NCBI RefSeq assembly: GCF_030056795.1
Contig: NZ_JASHKQ010000016.1
Coordinates: 1-64,000 of the forward strand
Reading direction: 5' to 3'
DNA length: 64,000 nt
DNA from: Rhodococcus sp. IEGM 1381
GTDB lineage: Bacteria > Actinomycetota > Actinomycetes > Mycobacteriales > Mycobacteriaceae
The translations under genes were made by a program, and so were the position numbers. Below are positions 7,915 to 20,154 of the stretch, piece by piece (the first letter of the stretch is position 1; the number at the start of each line of letters is the position of its first letter). The notes under the pieces were generated by a model. The model did not search any database, was not told the DNA's origin, and was given only the letters and a program-made list of their open reading frames with translations.

Positions 7915-7960
7915 GCACCATCCAGAGCGACCGAGAGACCTTGGCTCGATGACGTCGCAG
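7915..7960 (+). pseudogene. Truncated SAM-I riboswitch remnant
   Basis: The stretch 7917-7960 repeats the first half of the riboswitch at 12338: ACCATCCAGAGCGACCGAGA, then the GGCTCGATGA kink-turn partner and GTCGCAG. One extra T (about 7941) lies in the bulge. The identity ends abruptly after GTCGCAG, so the CAACC core, P3, P4 and the 3' strand of P1 are missing. The P2 stem halves GCGAC/GTCGC are intact. Without P1 closure it should not switch. It is read as a decayed copy, not a functional element. Confidence 0.75.
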
Positions 7961-7976
7961 GGGCGTGTCGTCGTCG

Positions 7977-8310
7977 TCAGCCTTTCGCGTTGGTGTTGTG
8001 ATTGAGCGCCGCGGCGATCCAGAATTCCAGCGCCGATTCGCCCGTCAGTGCCATTACGTCGACGGTGATCCACCTTTGGCCGATCGAGCGATTGCGGCCC
8101 ATGACAGCGTGGTGGGCTCCGTCGCGCTGGAGGTATTCGGGTTCACGGACCCCATCAACCCGAACCAGTAGCGCACTGCCTCTGCCGACACAAACCACCA
8201 TCTTGTCCCGCACCAGGAATGCCAGACCGCCGAACATCTTCTGCTCGCGCAGACTTTACTGATCAGAGAGGATCCCGACAACGCGCTCTGAGAAGCTCGT
8301 CGTACGCCAT
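7977..8310 (-). pseudogene. TfoX N-terminal-domain protein, frameshifted
   Basis: The family's usual opening, MAYDELLRARCRD, is encoded from ATG 8310. The rest (LREQKMFGGLAFLVRDKMVV ... WITVDVMALTGESALEFW) lies in another frame that is open only from about 8255; its first ATG is 8237. The offset of 73 nt, plus a TAA just before SLREQK in the second frame, breaks the gene near 8255-8280. Joined, it would be about 110 residues, normal for stand-alone TfoX_N proteins. It lies directly next to the riboswitch remnant, in an apparently eroding patch. A short product from ATG 8237 lacks the first strand and is unlikely to fold. Confidence 0.75.
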
Positions 8311-11444: not shown

Positions 11445-12233
11445 TCAAAGCGTGCAGTCGGATCCGGGGACAGCTTTCGCCGCGGCGACAATGGCGTCGA
11501 CTATTCGGTCTCGGTTCCGATCGATGAACAGTTGATCTCGCGAATACAGGGCACCGTGCTCGTGGTTCGGCCCGTCCCTGACTGCGAGTTTCAATGCCCC
11601 GAGTCTGGCGATGACGATGTCGGAGAGTTCGTCGGCCCGAGGGTCGGGACAGATCGTGAAGATTCGGCGCAGCCTGTCCCATCGATCGGTGTTCGGGGAC
11701 CATCCTCCGTCGGAGAAGTTGTCGGCACTGCAGAGTGGCGCGAATCGATAGGCGAAATAGGCCAGATCGTCGATGCGTCGCCCCGGCCCGGCTTCGTCGA
11801 AATCGATCAACGCGACGGCTCTGGATCCCTCGAAGACGAAGTTGTACGGAGATGCATCCCAGTGGCAGACCACCTCGGGTTCGACGCCGTCGGGCAGATG
11901 TCGGGCGTGGCCGACGGGCAACCGCAGACCGACGGTGAGGTGGTGCAATCGACTTAAGATCCGGACAGCGCTCTCCAAAGCGTCGACGCTGCGAATGGCG
12001 GCCGGCATCGGGTAGTTCCCCGCAGTCCCATGCCGATACGTGAGTATTTCTCGGCCCTGACCATCCACTCCCAGAAAGCGCGGAGCGTAGGGATAACCCT
12101 TGTGCTCCAACTCTTTCAGGAGATCGTGTACGGCAGCCGAGTGGTCTCCCGTTACTCGACGCACCGTCTCGGCCACCCGGTGAACGACGGTGCTGTTGCC
12201 TCCCGACAACGGCATTTCCGTCTCGTCCTTCAT
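11445..12233 (-). CDS. Aminoglycoside phosphotransferase-family kinase
   Basis: The 262-residue protein has the APH/choline-kinase catalytic loop VVCHWDASPYNFVFEG (HxDxxxxN) and the metal-binding IDFDEAGPGRRIDDLAYF. The N-lobe is short, with VRRVTGDHSAAVHDLLKELE ahead of the hinge GREILTYRHG. Such proteins phosphorylate small hydroxylated compounds, and many are not resistance enzymes, so no drug substrate should be assumed. Alternative ATG at residue 7. It diverges from the SAM riboswitch operon with about 100 bp between start and riboswitch. Confidence 0.8.
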   Translation of the reverse strand: MKDETEMPLSGGNSTVVHRVAETVRRVTGDHSAAVHDLLKELEHKGYPYAPRFLGVDGQGREILTYRHGTAGNYPMPAAIRSVDALESAVRILSRLHHLTVGLRLPVGHARHLPDGVEPEVVCHWDASPYNFVFEGSRAVALIDFDEAGPGRRIDDLAYFAYRFAPLCSADNFSDGGWSPNTDRWDRLRRIFTICPDPRADELSDIVIARLGALKLAVRDGPNHEHGALYSRDQLFIDRNRDRIVDAIVAAAKAVPGSDCTL

Positions 12234-12296
12234 GCTTCTACGTTCTCATGTCGATGTAGGAGTGCACGCGGGAAACCGCGCCGATCCTCACCCAAG

Positions 12297-12326
12297 TTGG
12301 CAACTGCGCGGACCCTCTCGTAGTAT
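12297..12326 (+). promoter_or_regulatory. Putative promoter of the organosulfur operon
   Basis: TTGGCA (12297-12302), an 18-nt spacer and TAGTAT (12321-12326) resemble a housekeeping promoter. The predicted start near 12333 lies a few bases before the riboswitch P1 helix, as expected for a riboswitch leader. Confidence 0.5.
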
Positions 12327-12337
12327 CGGGAACGTAG

Positions 12338-12430
12338 GACCATCCAGAGCGACCGAGAGACCTGGCTCGATGACGTCGCAGCAACCCCCCGCTTGTCGGG
12401 TGAGGGTGCTACCGCCGGGACCGATGGAGG
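12338..12430 (+). promoter_or_regulatory. SAM-I (S-box) riboswitch
   Basis: The element shows P1 (CCATC 12340-12344 with GATGG 12423-12427), P2 (GCGAC/GTCGC) with the kink-turn CGAGAGACC and GGCTCGATGA, the GCAACC core at about 12380, P3 (CCCGCTTGTCGGG) and P4 after GGTGCTACCGCC. This is the S-box family layout, which binds S-adenosylmethionine. The 3' strand of P1 runs directly into GGAGG (12426-12430), the ribosome binding site of the leader peptide at 12439. SAM-stabilised P1 should therefore hide that site: translational control with no separate terminator. The last step is inference. Confidence 0.85.
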
Positions 12431-12438
12431 AAACGCAC

Positions 12439-12531
12439 GTGAATACTCGAGTCGCCTCAGGTTTCGTCGACGGATGTCGCCGGATTCATGTCGATCTGTG
12501 CCGTCTGAACGGTTCGACCTGTCTTAGCTGA
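12439..12531 (+). CDS. Cys-rich leader peptide of the organosulfur operon
   Basis: This 30-codon ORF starts at GTG, 8 nt after GGAGG. It encodes a peptide with DGCRRIHVDLCRLNGSTCLS at its C-terminus: three Cys and the RR-x-HVDL-x-R core typical of actinobacterial cysteine-attenuation leaders. It shares that core with the leader at 678-752. The first gene of the operon begins 119 nt downstream. Between them TTCTCCTTCC (12578-12587) could pair with that gene's GGAGA site, giving a switch that opens when ribosomes stall at Cys codons. Its own ribosome binding site is part of riboswitch P1. Confidence 0.8.
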   Translation: MNTRVASGFVDGCRRIHVDLCRLNGSTCLS

Positions 12532-12650
12532 CATTTCGGCACCGTACTTTTCGACACCACACCTCATCATCTGCACGTTCTCCTTCCTGGGCACACATGG
12601 CTCGGACGCGGGAGTTCTCGTGCGATCGACCAGATACCGGAGACACCCAC

Positions 12651-14267
12651 GTGTCCACTCGCCCTGTTCTTTTGGTGGCCGGAGTAATCGCCGCCACCGC
12701 CACACTGCTCGCCGGGTGCGCAGGTAGCGCCAACACCTCGGCCGCCGACGCGGGCCCACCGCAGTCCGGAGGGACGCTGCGTTACGGCCTGTCCGGGGCT
12801 CCTACCTGCTCCGACCCGGCTCAGGCGGGTACAAATCAAACCATCTACGTCACCCGGCAGGTGGTCGATTCGCTTACCGACCAGAACCCTGAAACCGGAG
12901 AAGTAGAGCCATGGTTGGCTGAGAGTTGGGAGGTCGGCGCCGACGCGAAGTCCTTCACCTTCCAGCTGAAAGACGGTGTGACGTTCAGTGACGGCACCCC
13001 GCTCGATGCCACCGCCGTAAAGGACAATTTCGACGCCATCACCGGTGCTCTCGGTGCCGCCAAGGCACCGCTCGCTGCCAGTTACCTGACCGGATATCAA
13101 GGTGCCACGGTCGTCGACCCGCTCACGGTCCGCATCGACTTCTCGGCACCCAATGCGCAGTTCCTGCAGGCGAGTTCGACGCCTCAGCTCGGAATTCAGT
13201 CCACTGCAACGTCGGCACAGTCGGCCGAGTCGCGGTGCTTGGGTACCAACATCGGATCGGGACCGTTCACCTACGCGGACTACCAGCAGGACCGTTCCGT
13301 CATCTTGGCCAAGCGCACCGGATACAACTGGGGCTCTGCGGTATTCGGTCACGAGGGCGAGGCGTACCTGGACCGTATCGAGTTCACCATCGTGCCCGAA
13401 TCGGGTGTACGTACCGGCAGTCTTTCGTCTGACCAGCTCGATGCCGTCAGCGACGCGCTACCGCAGGACGCTCCACAGATCGAGGCGACCGGTGGCCGGA
13501 TCCTGACGGCATCCAATCCGGGCGTTCCGTTCGGCATTCAGCCCAACGTCACTCGCGGTGCGCTACAGGACCCCGCCGTCCGGACGGCCTTGGTGCCGGC
13601 GATCAACCGTCAGGAACTCGTCGATACGGTCCTCGGACCCGACTTCCGAACAGCGACAAGCACGTTGGCCAGCGCCACCCCGGGTTACGTCGAGCTCGCC
13701 GATGTCACCTACGATCCCGAGAAGGCGAAGTCGCTACTCGACGCGGCCGGATGGGTTCCCGGTGGAGGCGGCATCCGTGAAAAGGACGGGCAGAGGCTGA
13801 GTTTCAAGGTCATGTATTCAGCGGTGTTCGCCGGCAACCAGGCGATTCTGGAGCTGACCCAGCAGCAATTGCGCGCGGTGGGTGTCGACCTACAGCTCGA
13901 GCTGGTCTCCAATTCGGAGGCGACGGCACGGCAGGGCACGAAGGACTACGACTCCACGTACTACAACAGCACACGCGCCGACGGTGACATTCTGCGCACC
14001 TCGTTTGCCGTGGACGGACGGAACTTGAACGCGCGCGGCCCGATTCCGGATCTGGACGCCTCGTTGACCGATCAGCTCTCGACCACCGACGTTGCGGCGC
14101 GCAACGAGATCCTCGCAACCGCGCAGCAGCAGGTGCTCGACAATGGATTGTGGATTCCCACGATCGAGCTGTCGCAGGCCGTCGGCGCGGCGTCGACATT
14201 GCAGGATCTGAAGTTCGAGGCGTCCGCTCGCCTGCAGTTCTTCGACACTTGGCTGAGCGGGCAGTAG
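12651..14267 (+). CDS. ABC transporter substrate-binding lipoprotein (dipeptide/SBP_bac_5 family)
   Basis: The 538-residue product starts at GTG 12651 with GGAG 8 nt upstream. It begins with a signal peptide whose lipobox LLAG-C puts the lipidated Cys at about residue 23. The family signature GGTLRYGLSGAP and the later NVTRGALQDPAVRTALVPAI region mark it as a cluster C (oligopeptide/nickel-type) binding protein. In this operon it probably captures an organosulfur compound, since the genes behind it are flavin monooxygenases under SAM and cysteine control. The ligand is unknown. First structural gene of the nine-gene operon; the next start is 4 nt after its stop. Confidence 0.9.
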   Translation: MSTRPVLLVAGVIAATATLLAGCAGSANTSAADAGPPQSGGTLRYGLSGAPTCSDPAQAGTNQTIYVTRQVVDSLTDQNPETGEVEPWLAESWEVGADAKSFTFQLKDGVTFSDGTPLDATAVKDNFDAITGALGAAKAPLAASYLTGYQGATVVDPLTVRIDFSAPNAQFLQASSTPQLGIQSTATSAQSAESRCLGTNIGSGPFTYADYQQDRSVILAKRTGYNWGSAVFGHEGEAYLDRIEFTIVPESGVRTGSLSSDQLDAVSDALPQDAPQIEATGGRILTASNPGVPFGIQPNVTRGALQDPAVRTALVPAINRQELVDTVLGPDFRTATSTLASATPGYVELADVTYDPEKAKSLLDAAGWVPGGGGIREKDGQRLSFKVMYSAVFAGNQAILELTQQQLRAVGVDLQLELVSNSEATARQGTKDYDSTYYNSTRADGDILRTSFAVDGRNLNARGPIPDLDASLTDQLSTTDVAARNEILATAQQQVLDNGLWIPTIELSQAVGAASTLQDLKFEASARLQFFDTWLSGQ

Positions 14268-14271
14268 AGCC

Positions 14272-15252
14272 ATGACCCGCTACATCGGACAGCGAGTACT
14301 GCAGGCACTGGCGGTGCTGTGGGCTGCGTTCACGATCTCGTTCATCGTGCTGTTCCTCCTTCCCTCGGACCCGGTCAGTCTTGCCGTGGACTCGGCCGGC
14401 TCGGGAACCCCGGCAGATGCTGCGGCGATCGCTGAACTGCAGGCTCGTTACGGTCTCGATCAGCCGGTGCTGGTGCAGTACTGGCACTCGCTGGTTGGGG
14501 CCGTGCAGGGTGATTTCGGATTGTCCATCGCCACCGGCCAGCCGGTGACGACGGCCATTCTCGACGCGGTGCCCAGCACACTCGGCTTGGCGGGGACGGC
14601 CCTGGTGCTGGCCGTCGTATTCGGATCAGCGGTGGCCTACGCAGCCACGTACACCCAGATCGTATGGCTGAAGAACCTGCTGCTCGCGCTCCCACCGCTC
14701 GGGGTGGCGGTGCCGACGTTCTGGGTAGGACTACTGCTGCTGCAACTGTTCTCGTTCCGACTGCGCTGGTTCCCGGCGTTCGGTGACGACGGGGCAGCGT
14801 CGTTGGTGCTGCCTGCGGTGACACTGGCACTGCCGACCGGTGCTGTCATCGCTCAGGTCTTGGCTACCAGCATGGCCACCACGTGGAAGCAGCCGTTCGT
14901 GGATGTGGCTCGCGCCAAGGGGGTCTCACGCCTTCGTGTGCAGACGCGACACGTTCTGCGACTGTCCTCGATCCCGGCCTTCACGATTGCCGGAGTCTTG
15001 GTGGGCACCCTGCTGGCCGGATCGGTGGTGGTCGAGACGGTGTTCTCGCGCGCCGGAGTCGGACGGCTGACCCAGACATCGGTGCTGGCCCAGGACATTC
15101 CGGTGGTGCAAGGCATCGTCGTTCTGACCTCGCTGGTCTTCGTCCTGGTCAATCTCGCAGTCGACCTGCTCTATCCGCTGATCGATCCGCGCATCGTGCG
15201 CGAGTACCGGCCCGCGCAGGCCAGTACAGAACCGGAGAAAGCCCATGTCTGA
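14272..15252 (+). CDS. ABC transporter permease (DppB-like)
   Basis: The 326-residue inner-membrane protein has about six transmembrane helices: an N-terminal one (LAVLWAAFTISFIVLFLLPS), a long extracytoplasmic loop with the family motif ARYGLDQPVLVQYW, then the inner-membrane component domain. The ATPase-contact loop reads QPFVDVARAKGVSRLRVQTR, the EAA-type motif of DppB. It overlaps the next permease by 8 nt. Confidence 0.9.
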   Translation: MTRYIGQRVLQALAVLWAAFTISFIVLFLLPSDPVSLAVDSAGSGTPADAAAIAELQARYGLDQPVLVQYWHSLVGAVQGDFGLSIATGQPVTTAILDAVPSTLGLAGTALVLAVVFGSAVAYAATYTQIVWLKNLLLALPPLGVAVPTFWVGLLLLQLFSFRLRWFPAFGDDGAASLVLPAVTLALPTGAVIAQVLATSMATTWKQPFVDVARAKGVSRLRVQTRHVLRLSSIPAFTIAGVLVGTLLAGSVVVETVFSRAGVGRLTQTSVLAQDIPVVQGIVVLTSLVFVLVNLAVDLLYPLIDPRIVREYRPAQASTEPEKAHV

Positions 15253-16138
15253 CATTTTGATTCGTGAACCTGCCGCCCAATCGGCAATTCCTGTGGCAGG
15301 CGAAGAAGCACCGGCACCCACGCGGCGACGGGGTCCGCGGGATGTGTTGAAACACATCTGGCTCGGTGCCTCCGTGATCGTGCTGTTGCTGGCGCTCGGG
15401 TTCGCGCTGTTCCCGTCTGTCTTCGCAAGCGGCGACCCGCTGGTGGGTACACCGGCGGACAAGCTCCAGGCACCCAGCGCGTCGCATTGGTTCGGCACCG
15501 ACAACATCGGCCGTGACGTATTCACCCGAGTGGTCCATGGTTCCGGACTGTCTCTGACGGCAACGCTATTGGCAGTCGGTATCGCCCTGGTGGTCGGCTC
15601 GATCATCGGTCTGGTTTCGGGGGCCGTCGGCGGAATCGTCGACGCGGTGCTGATGCGAATTGTCGATGTGTTGCTGTCGATTCCAACGTTGTTGCTCTCG
15701 TTGGCGCTGGTGACCGCTCTGGGCTTCGGCACCGTCAACGTCGCTATCGCCGTCGGCGTCACGCTGATTGCCAATTTCGCCAGAGTGATGCGCTCGGAGG
15801 TACTGCGGGTGCGCAGATCGCTGTACGTCGAAGCGGCTTACGCCTCGGGTGTGCGGTGGTTCGATGTCTTCCGCAGGCACATCCTCAGAAACTCGTGCGG
15901 CCCTGTGATCGCACTCGCTGCAGTCGAATTCGGTATGGCGGTTCTTGCGGTATCGGCGCTGAGCTTCCTCGGTTTCGGCGCTGCTCCGCCCACCCCGGAG
16001 TGGGGATCGCTGATTTCCGAGGGCCGCAACTTCCTGGCCACGGCCTGGTGGATGACCACACTGCCGGGATTGGTGATCGTGGCCGTCGTCGTGTCCGCGC
16101 ACCGCCTAGGGCATGCACTCGAGAGGCGATCACAATGA
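15245..16138 (+). CDS. ABC transporter permease (DppC-like)
   Basis: The 297-residue partner permease has the DppC hallmark [20 protein letters not shown] after the first membrane helix and the coupling loop [20 protein letters not shown]. It likely forms a heterodimer with the preceding permease. Its stop overlaps the ATPase start (ATGA). The proline- and arginine-rich first 40 residues are cytoplasmic. Confidence 0.9.
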
Positions 16139-17733
16139 GCCCCATTCTCGAAGTAGAGAATCTGCACGTGAATTACGGTGAGACGACCGCAGTCTCCGGC
16201 ATCGGGTTCACCGTCGACCGCGGTGAAGTGGTGGCCGTGGTCGGTGAGTCGGGGTCCGGAAAGTCGACGATTGCCCACGCCCTCATCGGTCTGCTCGCGG
16301 GTTCCGGCCGCATCGTGGGCGGATCGGTGACGTTCGACGGGCAGCGGCTCGACACAGCCTTGGACAAGACGTTGAACCGGTTGCGCGGCCGTCATATCGG
16401 GCTCGTCCCGCAGGATCCGACCACCTCACTGAACCCGGTGGTTCGCGTCGGCGACCAGGTTGCCGAGGTGCTGCGGGTGCACGGCCTCGCAGATCGCCGG
16501 TCCGCGAAGGTCGAGGCAATTCGCATCCTCACCGAAGCCGGTCTGGACAACCCCGAGGTGCGGGCGCGGCAGTATCCGCAGGACCTGTCCGGTGGGCAGC
16601 GTCAGCGCGTGTTGATCGGAATCGCTCTCGCGTGCCGCCCGGAACTGGTGATCGCCGACGAGCCGACCAGCGCCCTGGACGTCACCGTGCAGCGACGCAT
16701 CCTCGACCATCTCGACGCCAGGATCGCCGAAACCGGTGCCGCTGTCCTGCTGATCACTCATGACCTGGGTGTCGCTGCGGATAGAGCCGATCGCCTCATC
16801 GTCATGAGCGCGGGCCGGATTGTCGAAACCGGCCCCACCGCAGAGGTACTGGCATATCCGACGCACGCATATACGCGTCAACTGTTGGCCGCGGCACCGT
16901 CGCTGAACACAACCGTACGACCCACGCGTACCACGGTCGGCGAGCCGATACTGACGGTCAGCGACGTCTCGAAGCGGTTCACCATAGGCCGCGGCGTCCA
17001 CCTCGATGCGGTCAAGGGAGCCACGTTGACCGTCGAACGTGGGCGCACCGTGTCGCTCGTCGGCGAATCCGGTTCCGGCAAGTCTACTTTGGCGCGCATC
17101 GCGATCGGTCTCGAGACCGCGTCGTCGGGTTCGGTCACGTTCGACGGTGTGGACATCACCGGTCTGCGTGGCAAGGCCAGGCGCGAACTGCGGCGGCGTG
17201 TTCAGATCGTCTATCAGAACCCGTACGCCTCACTGAACCCGAAGTTGCGGGTCGGCGAGATCGTGCGAGAACCGTTGGACGCGTTCACGGTCGGTTCCTC
17301 GCGTGAGCGTTCCGAGCGTGCCCGGACGCTGCTCGATCAGGTGGCGCTCACCGGCGATTACCTGGCCCGCCGGCCGGCCGAGCTCTCCGGCGGGCAGCGC
17401 CAGCGCGTAGCCATCGCCCGAGCGTTGGCTCTCGCACCGGAACTGGTGGTGCTCGACGAGCCGGTCTCGGCCCTCGACGTATCGGTGCAAGCACAGATCC
17501 TGACGCTGCTCGACGACTTGCAGTCCGAGCTGGGTCTGAGCTACCTCTTCATCTCGCACGATCTGGCCGTGGTACGTCAAATCAGCGACACCGTGGCCGT
17601 CATGCAATCCGGCGCCATCGTGGAATACGGCGACACCGCAGCACTGTTCGACAATCCACAGCAGGACTACACCCGCGAGCTACTCGGGGCCATACCCGGA
17701 AGCGCGCACGAGAAAGCGAGCACCAGTGTCTGA
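16135..17733 (+). CDS. Fused dual-ATPase ABC subunit (DppD-DppF)
   Basis: The 532-residue protein contains two complete nucleotide-binding domains. Each has a Walker A (GESGSGKST, about residues 38-46 and 312-320), the signature LSGGQRQRV and a Walker B ([22 protein letters not shown]). It therefore supplies both ATPases for the two permeases. I start at ATG 16135, which overlaps the previous stop; a longer frame upstream lies inside the permease gene. It overlaps the next gene by 8 nt. Confidence 0.92.
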
Positions 17734-18802
17734 CAAGCTGTTCCTGACCGCGATAGAGCTGAAAGGCACCGGCGCACATCCGCAGGCCTGGCGTCGTCCC
17801 GATTCTCGCGCCGAAGACCTGTACACAGCAGGGTTCTGGGTCGACCAGCTCCAGGCTGCAGACCGAGCGGGTGTCGATCTCGCGTTCCTGGGCGATTCGT
17901 TCGCCAGTCGTACTCTCGAGGCCGCAGCCATCGCGGCGCGGGTAGCCGCCCTCACCGAGAAGATCGGGCTGGTGCCCACGATCACCGTTACGCACACCGA
18001 GCCGTTCCACATCTCGAAGCAGATCGCGAGCCTCGATTTCGCTTCCCACGGTCGGGCCGGATGGCAGGTCGAGGTGAGTCCGGGTGCCGAGCAGGCAGCG
18101 CTGTTCGGTCGGAAAGCGGAGCAGGACAACGACAGCCTGTGGCGCGAAGCGGACGAGGCAATCGAGGTCGTCACCAGGCTCTGGGACAGCTGGGAAGACG
18201 ACGCGGAGATCCGTGATGTCGAGTCGGGGCGGTTCATCGACCGAGACAAGCTGCACTACATCGACTTCGAGGGTGAGAACTTCTCGGTCAAGGGTCCGTC
18301 GATCACTCCGAGGTCTCCTCAGGGACAGCCGCTGGTCGTAATTCGTGGCGACTCCACGGAGTCCGTGTCGGTGGCCGCTGCGCGTGCCGGCATCGTCCGA
18401 ATCGTCGCCGACACGGTCGATGATGCGGCAACGACCGCCGCCCGCATTCGACGGGCCGTCGTTGCCGAAGGCCGGGACCCGGCCGACGTGTTCGTTCTGC
18501 TGGACGTGGAGACCTTGGTATCCAATTATGCCGCTGAAGAACTCGCTCAGCTCGACAACTGGGCGGGGAACGTCAGGGCCGCTGAGAGCGTGTCGCATAT
18601 CGGCGATCTCGCCGGGCTGCATCTGCTCTTGGGTTCCATCGAAGCAGCCGGTCTGGACGGTGTGACGCTGGTACCGCTCGCGTTGCCGTCGGGAATCCGA
18701 TCACTACCGGCCACCGACAACCGCAGCGGATCGACTCTGCGCGAGCGTCTCGGCCTGACGCGTCCCGCCAATCGCTATGCACTCGAAGGGAAGAGCCTGT
18801 GA
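17726..18802 (+). CDS. LLM-class flavin monooxygenase 1 of the operon
   Basis: This 358-residue luciferase-like TIM-barrel protein starts at GTG and overlaps the ATPase stop by 8 nt. The pattern [36 protein letters not shown] and [16 protein letters not shown] matches FMNH2-dependent monooxygenases of the NtaA/SsuD superfamily. No flavin reductase is encoded in the operon, so reduced flavin must come from elsewhere. The exact reaction is unknown; C-S bond oxidation is inferred from the sulfur-type regulation. Confidence 0.85.
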
Positions 18803-20154
18803 CGAAGAAGCAGATACATCTGGGTGCCCATTTCCCCGGCGTCAACAACACGACCGTCTGGGCAGATCCGGAATCGAAGAGCCAGATCGAGTTCGATTCG
18901 TTCGTGCACCTCGCGGAATCGGCCGAGCGCGGCCTGTTCGACTTCTTCTTCCTCGCCGAGGGACTGCGACTTCGCGAGCATCGCAACAAGATCCATGACC
19001 TCGATGTCGTCGGAAGACCCGACACCCTCACCGTCCTCAACGCTCTTGCATCGGTGACGACCAAGCTCGGACTGGCCGGGACGATCAACACCACGTTCAA
19101 CGAACCGTTCGAGCTTGCTAAACAATTCTCGTCGCTGGACCATCTGTCCGACGGTAGGGCGGCATGGAACATGGTGACGTCCTCGGATGCGTTCACCGGC
19201 GAGAACTTCAGGCGAGGCGGCTATCTCGATCGTGCCGACCGTTACGTGCGGGCCAACGAAATCATCGACGTTGCGCGAAGGCTCTGGGATTCTTGGCAGT
19301 CCGACGCGTTCGTCGTCGATCGGGAGCGGGGAATCTTCGGTCGCGAGTCCGAGATCCGAACCGTGAGGCATACCGGGCCGCAGTTCGAGGTCGAGGGCCG
19401 CTTCACACTGCCGCGTAGTCCGCAGGGGCATCCAGTTCTGTTGCAGGCAGGCGATTCCGACCAGGGCCGCGAATTCGGTGCGGCGAAGGCTGACGCCATC
19501 TTCACCATCCACGGCACGCTAGAGGACGGACAGAAGTTCTACTCCGACGTCAAGGGTCGGCTCGCCAAGTACGGCCGCGAGCACGACGACCTGAAAGTGC
19601 TGCCCGCCGCGACGTTCGTGCTCGGTGATTCGGCGCAGGACGCCGCCGAGAAGGCGGACCACATCCGGCATCAGCAGGTGAGCGGTAAGACGGCTATTTC
19701 GTTCCTCGAACAGGTGTGGGGACAGGACCTGTCCGCGTACGACCCGGACGGTCCGTTGCCCGATATCGAACCCAACGGTGACGTGTCCATCACCCGTGGG
19801 CGTGCGAGACACGGCGACCCCAGAACCATCGCCCAGCGGTACCGCGAGCGCGCGGAAGCAGACAACCTGAGCATTCGTGAACTGATCATCGCGATGACGA
19901 CGCGGCAGCAGTTCGTCGGAACCCCTGCGCACGTGGCCGAGGAAATCGACAGCTACGTGCAGAACAACGCGAGCGACGGCTTCATCCTCGTCCCGCACAT
20001 CACCCCAGCCGGCCTCGATGAATTCGTCGATAGAGTGATTCCGGAACTTCAGGACCGCGGTAGCTTCCGCACCGAATACGCCGGAACCACCTTGCGCGAC
20101 CATCTCGGTCTGCGGCACCCGTACGAACAGCGTGAAGGAGTGCGAGCATCATGA
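18799..20154 (+). CDS. NtaA/DszA-type FMN-dependent monooxygenase 2 of the operon
   Basis: The 451-residue protein shows the NtaA/SnaA/DszA family motifs: FDFFFLAEGLRLRE, EPFELAKQFSSLDHLSDGRA, AWNMVTSSDA and SPQGHPVLLQAGDSDQGREF. It is the same length as the solitary gene at 6455-7810. DszA acts on dibenzothiophene sulfone and NtaA on nitrilotriacetate, so an S- or N-containing substrate is likely. GTG start, 4-nt overlaps on both sides. It lies between monooxygenase 1 and DUF1684, a run that suggests sequential oxidation of an imported compound. Confidence 0.88.
   Translation: MTKKQIHLGAHFPGVNNTTVWADPESKSQIEFDSFVHLAESAERGLFDFFFLAEGLRLREHRNKIHDLDVVGRPDTLTVLNALASVTTKLGLAGTINTTFNEPFELAKQFSSLDHLSDGRAAWNMVTSSDAFTGENFRRGGYLDRADRYVRANEIIDVARRLWDSWQSDAFVVDRERGIFGRESEIRTVRHTGPQFEVEGRFTLPRSPQGHPVLLQAGDSDQGREFGAAKADAIFTIHGTLEDGQKFYSDVKGRLAKYGREHDDLKVLPAATFVLGDSAQDAAEKADHIRHQQVSGKTAISFLEQVWGQDLSAYDPDGPLPDIEPNGDVSITRGRARHGDPRTIAQRYRERAEADNLSIRELIIAMTTRQQFVGTPAHVAEEIDSYVQNNASDGFILVPHITPAGLDEFVDRVIPELQDRGSFRTEYAGTTLRDHLGLRHPYEQREGVRAS

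Follow-up and report, generated by a model that had tools for sequence, protein, structure and literature searches.

Introduction

Attenuators built on short cysteine-containing leader ORFs were reportedly described in actinobacteria by Canestrari in 2020. Riboswitches that act through small upstream ORFs (uORFs) have been demonstrated only lately, for B12 and Mg. In Mycobacterium tuberculosis, B12 riboswitches exert such uORF control (PMC11260477), and the Mbox riboswitch combines it with Rho (PMC12810186). According to the accessible passages of the latter paper, the pe20 Mbox arrangement has a Shine-Dalgarno (SD) sequence at the end of the aptamer, small uORFs and Rho-dependent termination, and its uORF1 contains four Cys codons, which the authors treat as rare codons and not as a sensor. 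The switch senses Mg, however, and the conserved uORF2 is not described in those passages as a Cys leader. In the M. tuberculosis metE/ppe2 B12 riboswitches the output of the switch also interacts with uORF translation, yet the available text reports stop-start coupling for ppe2 and mentions no amino-acid-sensing leader (PMC11260477).

Mycobacterial Cys leaders are likewise known (PMC4633059, PMC9094748, in the parts available). The actinobacterial Cys leader attenuators, as presented in the accessible text of PMC1262725 and PMC4633059, are short ORFs with Cys codons near the stop, located before sulfur genes, but no riboswitch gating is described there and the M. smegmatis ones are leaderless. 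For their mode of action, the 2005 study (PMC1262725, accessible part) weakly predicted Rho attenuation with pyrimidine tracts for the mycobacterial Cys leaders, and a 2026 study summarises those of M. smegmatis, in its available portion, as translation attenuators that are not Rho-dependent (PMC13236596). The Xanthomonas SAM-I riboswitch unites two related inputs in one translational SAM-I element, which senses uncharged initiator tRNA; its second input, however, is a tRNA binding the expression platform and not ribosome stalling (PMC7270179). In some Bacillota ssu-type operons, T-box and SAM elements in tandem read SAM and aminoacyl-tRNA status in series on one mRNA, but do so by two RNA aptamers, with no leader peptide in the passages available (PMC12452182).

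Here we describe a locus of Rhodococcus sp. IEGM 1381 in which the small ORF behind a SAM riboswitch is a member of a putative amino-acid-sensing leader family, a pairing that recurs in dozens of genomes. The original prediction for this DNA had named no described precedent for the arrangement. We found no report of a Cys leader behind an S-box in the titles, abstract beginnings and passages of the open-access literature, and the exact pairing appears new; the claim has to be narrowed in that riboswitch control of a uORF is already in print for B12 and Mg.

Organisation of the locus

We analysed a window of 64,000 nt (contig NZ_JASHKQ010000016.1, positions 1 to 64,000); all features given below lie on its forward strand. 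Scanning the whole window with cmscan yielded a single Rfam match above cut-off, a full-length match (model positions 1-108) to the SAM riboswitch (S-box, RF00162) at 12337-12430, which with 54.6 bits exceeds the gathering score of 44.4. The covariance model thus bears out the predicted S-box aptamer, which by its sequence is a SAM-I riboswitch with predicted SAM binding. One further RF00162 match, at 7915-7996, reached 28 bits, below the cut-off, lacks the P1-SD unit described next, and was taken as a chance hit. A sigma-70-like promoter-like site, TTGGCA-18-TAGTAT, was found at 12297-12326 (one in the scan vs. 0.1 expected in shuffles), both hexamers are kept in nine sequences of the window's clade, and a transcript from this site would start just upstream of the aptamer.

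Alignment to the RF00162 model places the 5′ strand of helix P1, CCATC, at 12340-12344 and its 3′ strand, GATGG, at 12423-12427; the outermost three P1 pairs of the model are non-standard in the window. The SD sequence of the leader ORF, GGAGG, occupies 12426-12430 and ends 8 nt upstream of the GTG start codon at 12439. Two of its five bases (12426-12427) are therefore common to P1 and the SD, exactly the overlap that had been proposed, and the coordinates given in the original prediction proved correct. The leader ORF itself (12439-12531) has 30 codons, and its product is MNTRVASGFVDGCRRIHVDLCRLNGSTCLS.

Downstream lies an operon that encodes an ABC importer and FMN monooxygenases. Gene 1, a family 5 ABC solute-binding protein (12651-14267; PF00496, 241.4 bits), most likely starts at GTG 12651, judging from the SD sequence GGAG at 12639-12642 and a lipoprotein-type start, and not at ATG 12597. 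CGGAG is present at this SD in 16 of 17 aligned relatives as well, the one without it there being G016. Two ABC permeases follow (14272-15252 and 15245-16138; both PF00528), then a fused double ABC ATPase (16138-17733; PF00005 in two stretches), a luciferase-like FMN monooxygenase (17726-18802; PF00296, with 222.3 bits in the NtaA/DmoA model, below its cut-off of 279.7) and an NtaA/DmoA family FMN monooxygenase (18799-20154; TIGR03860, 437.8 bits, cut-off 279.7), with more ORFs closely downstream. From the family names and the riboswitch, the operon most likely serves uptake and cleavage, that is scavenging, of organosulfur compounds.

Recurrence of the arrangement and natural controls

RF00162 was searched in 61 genomes, of which 45 had a match, and in 251 genomes of the family, of which 69 had one, the two sets overlapping. 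We read 138 S-box sites (49 of the genus, two in the window and 87 elsewhere in the family), a set that excludes the weak match G273:C26:247-354 (37.2 bits) and 22 order-level sites. A leader ORF follows at 77 of them, an ordinary gene directly at 45, and neither at 16. For the 124 sites, from 75 genomes, that reach the gathering score, the counts are 76, 35 and 13, respectively. Leaders with an H-x-D motif, starting 1-12 nt past the aptamer, account for 69 of these 124 sites; they comprise 55 distinct peptides from 51 genomes in eight genus groups. When the motif was tested on the same 124 sites, 70 cases were observed vs. an average of 0.35 after mononucleotide shuffling. The series of S-box and H-x-D leader exceeds chance and recurs in dozens of genomes.

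Some assignments need qualification. The seven leaders outside the 69 are five nine-codon Cys leaders and those of G099 and G223, which lack the H-x-D motif and are possibly spurious. Within the 69, those of G162 and G273 (L198 and L235) run on for at least 70 codons and are leader-like at their start only. Three sites filed as neither, G032:5668498 and two in G007, have apparent degenerate or nine-codon leaders that were not counted. In G007:C1 the S-box operon start occurs twice (L049 and L055), in opposite orientation and about 72 kb apart; the copies are identical in the printed stretch and carry the nine-codon reading frame MNTCIRTPA. By the genomes matched, the genus groups contain R. 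fascians and its kin (g1), R. wratislaviensis and R. opacus (g44), R. zopfii and R. aetherivorans (g48), R. triatomae (g42), Williamsia (g31) and Nocardia (g43). The Nocardia group has seven direct sites, two of the remaining kind and no leader site. At two sites of g42 (L112 and L161) P1 is followed, by eye, by a GC-rich inverted repeat and no clear ribosome site, which suggests another expression platform for these S-boxes. Outside the family, the H-x-D motif was absent from the small ORFs listed at one S-box each in 22 genomes of the same order, a reading that omits two further sites, in G049 and G053; many of these order-level S-boxes precede what we take to be threonine synthase.

Related loci also provided natural controls in which the switch and the leader stand apart. 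The P1/SD unit is the same whether a leader or an ordinary gene lies downstream: GATGGAGG is found exactly at 57 of 77 leader sites and at 26 of 45 direct sites. One direct site precedes what is presumably a GNAT-like ORF and then a monooxygenase-like ORF. The permease operon at G016:C1:527884 (L052, 3885-3978), which has a leader in most of the genus relatives read, stands directly behind its S-box and is a naturally leaderless version. For the best 80 of 152 gene-1 relatives, a pattern scan of about 800 nt of upstream sequence detected an S-box at 27; of these, 21 have the leader, all in Rhodococcus or Rhodococcoides, and six lack it, all in Nocardia. Carriers of the S-box-leader unit include R. 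jostii NBRC 16295, R. opacus ATCC 51881 and R. wratislaviensis NCTC 13229. None of the other 53 has the leader, though the S-box count is limited to that distance, cmscan having placed S-boxes beyond about 800 nt in at least three of them (L201, L204 and L206). An Rfam check of 35 of the 80 loci confirmed 20 of 20 pattern S-boxes. The entry L206, titled Kitasatospora arboriphila NRRL B-24581, looks mislabelled or contaminated: one of its contigs equals G160:C2 in length (1421547), and G160:C2 is grouped with Williamsia in g31.

Conversely, the leader family NF042934 has matches in 36 of 37 genomes, also without an S-box and including genomes of the same genus that lack any RF00162 match. In the window's own genome, a leader that we assign to this family, MAPVTDSGIRLVARRHVDLGRVCSASCRHTTGC (L060, about 1474-1575), precedes what is presumably a sulfite reductase-like ORF; it scores below the NF042934 cut-off, and there is no S-box in that locus. 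Since the leader family occurs without S-boxes and S-boxes sit directly on genes, switch and leader are separable modules.

P1 and initiation of the leader ORF

CCATC/GATGG is present at 117 of the 138 S-box sites; this 5-bp helix is nearly invariant, with two-sided change at the outer pair alone (U-A at 9 of 138), a point that counts against the scheme. GATGG forms the 3′ strand of P1 at all 69 above-cut-off H-x-D leader sites, where the P1/SD sequence reads GATGGAGG at 52 and GATGGAAG at 13. In plain folding of 70 leader sites, P1 was barely formed without ligand (mean probability 0.09), which is the behaviour expected of a SAM-dependent helix. In the free RNA the leader SD did not gain accessibility (unpaired 0.38 vs. 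0.43 with P1 forced), and it was more open without forced P1 at just 27 of the 70 sites. The SD of the window's own leader followed the same trend. Because the energy model excludes SAM and tertiary contacts, so that plain folding is ligand-blind, we base the gating step on the conservation of the overlap between P1 and SD and on the copies placed directly before genes. Gating of the leader by SAM through P1, as first proposed, is thus backed by comparison, but the SD opening it implies does not appear in folding. On this comparative evidence we consider it very likely that the S-box controls initiation of the leader.

Coding constraint and Cys codons of the leader

The 30-codon leader carries an HVDLCR motif and Cys codons at 12475, 12499 and 12520, the last of which, TGT (12520-12522), lies two codons ahead of the stop codon. 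The fraction of synonymous changes reached 0.71 vs. a null of 0.28 in nine sequences of the window's clade, and 0.63 vs. 0.24 in eight sequences of a second clade; in each, none of 300 column permutations attained the observed value. By this measure the leader is evolving as coding sequence, under selection in both clades. The predicted ORF is accordingly present and constrained, but its description as Cys-rich is generous for three Cys in 30 codons, two of which are kept in the sister clade. The NCBIfam model NF042934 (cis_reg_atten, 'putative leader peptide'), a putative Cys-sensing family, matched the leader marginally, with 27.4 bits at a cut-off of 27, and in the genome-wide search the same leader scored 24.1 bits, below the cut-off.

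The placement of Cys codons recurs among relatives. They are few (two or three), and at 63 of 75 distinct leader sites the last of them lies 0-3 codons ahead of the stop. The length and N-terminus of the leader vary freely, down to a minimum of nine codons, and even nine-codon leaders such as MNICTCTHA retain Cys codons close to the stop. Where S-box leaders have the HxDL motif, the next residue is nearly always Cys, the exceptions seen being those of G016 and G125 and that of the weak G232 site. A Cys stands there in one of seven leaders without an S-box, a small comparison in which nine of 22 loci were read, seven without an S-box and two flagged as having one, one of the flags (L271) resting on a loose pattern. 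We consider it likely that the leader responds to Cys. As the conservation of HVDL.R extends beyond the Cys residue, the nascent peptide might be what determines stalling.

Composition of the spacer between leader and operon

The spacer behind the leader (12532-12595) is C-rich and G-poor and constitutes a candidate Rho-loading (rut) site; the CU-rich stretch at 12578-12587 pointed out originally is indeed present in it. The C/G ratio is about 2.6 in the 60-nt segments 12513-12572 and 12543-12602, the highest over 12333-13442. Across 75 distinct spacers, the 60 nt past the leader stop have a C content of 0.397 and a G content of 0.232, vs. 0.320 and 0.283 in 89 control stretches that precede ORFs, both in the window and in 27 fetched loci. 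C minus G amounts to 0.018 in the 60 nt before the leader stop and to 0.170 in the 60 nt after it; from 90 nt past the stop onward it stays within the range of -0.05 to 0.08. Comparison of the peak after the stop with the region at 300-360 nt gave a Wilcoxon p of 0.0015 over 12 clusters (65 sites with leaders of up to 60 codons, clustered because the sequences are related). Groups other than g1 show less of this bias (0.058 in g42, 0.10 in g34 and 0.11 in g48); a C-rich composition is common to clades whose spacers cannot be aligned.

No terminator-like site was found in 12200-12750, and a classical transcription attenuator was ruled out, there being no intrinsic terminator between leader and gene 1. 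The excess of C over G, which peaks at the leader stop, suggests attenuation by Rho. In a tna-like design the ribosome has to halt at the last Cys codon and abut the start of the Rho-loading site. A last Cys codon near the stop, with the C-rich stretch beginning there, fits these needs. Provided that the rest of the scheme holds, we regard it as fairly probable that the second step works through Rho and not through translation of gene 1.

Discussion

The explanation that we consider best, while rating it somewhat below an even chance, is a two-input attenuator in series with a Rho-dependent second step. At high SAM, P1 of the S-box would close and take up part of the leader SD, a step that the comparison of sites supports; the leader ORF would then stay untranslated and its RNA prone to Rho. 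When SAM is low, ribosomes would translate the leader. With plentiful Cys-tRNA the ribosome would finish and leave, exposing a Rho-loading site from the stop codon on, and transcription would end before gene 1. When Cys is scarce, the ribosome would wait at the last Cys codon and shield the Rho site, and the operon would be transcribed. Full output would be reached solely when SAM and Cys are both low. Our estimate for the Rho model was lowered because opening of the leader SD is absent in folding and because the accessible text of PMC13236596 calls such leaders translational.

A second step of the latter kind, in which the ribosome site of gene 1 is sequestered by leader RNA until a stalled ribosome releases it, shares the first step and appears rather unlikely to us. 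The M. smegmatis summary in that paper's available portion speaks for it, as does a column scan for helices of at least four pairs between the leader region (about 12458-12552, which leaves the CU-rich stretch outside) and the gene-1 SD; performed on 17 sequences with G016 dropped, it returned one 5-bp candidate, also found cut to 4 bp, which joins the leader GFV codons to the gene-1 SD in 98% of cells. We give this helix little weight because both strands lie in conserved sequence. Against masking, the mean accessibility of the gene-1 SD was 0.30 each time when a ribosome footprint was forced at the final Cys codon, at the Cys of HVDLC or at the stop, vs. 0.29 unmasked (17 sequences, G016 left out; folding alone being weak evidence). 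Individual sequences varied, G003 and G027 rising at the last Cys and some others falling, and in single-sequence folds the partners of this SD differ between orthologues. The CU-rich stretch had been proposed as the mask itself. This idea fails: its expected pairs with the gene-1 SD are at most 0.006 in each of nine sequences of the window's clade, and RNAalifold pairs it with G-rich sequence around 12604-12614, upstream of that SD.

Compared with such a translational step, a role for SAM alone seems still less probable. Here the S-box would control a uORF whose translation keeps the operon on, as in M. tuberculosis ppe2, and Cys would play no part. Couples of riboswitch and uORF with this logic exist (PMC11260477, PMC12810186, accessible passages), but the gap from the leader stop to the gene-1 SD, 65-133 nt in 17 sequences, is long enough for stop-start coupling to be judged unlikely, and the retention of Cys codons near the stop down to nine-codon leaders also argues against it. 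Strong amino-acid conservation would suit a functional small protein that is co-regulated with the operon and regulates nothing itself. Yet the leader fits a leader-peptide family with other matches in the same genomes, shows free variation in length and N-terminus, and is missing from the six Nocardia gene-1 loci that have an S-box; we hold this possibility to be very improbable.

Setting aside whether a Rho block or a freed gene-1 start carries the second step, we regard the chances as evenly balanced that the locus works as an AND gate, opening the operon only when levels are low at both ends of the pathway that leads from Cys to SAM. Under the same evenly weighted reading, a Cys attenuator that already existed as a module would have been inserted during evolution at the position which, behind other copies of the riboswitch, is taken by the start of a gene. 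Nature offers the controls for such a scheme: copies of the switch placed immediately before genes, members of the leader family that lack the switch, and related operons in which one element or both are missing. Together with the recurrence of the pairing, they make the integration of a metabolite signal and an aminoacyl-tRNA signal on one nascent RNA directly testable in a laboratory strain of Rhodococcus, a genus in which, as in some related bacteria, one likely sulfur-scavenging operon probably reads two sulfur signals in series.
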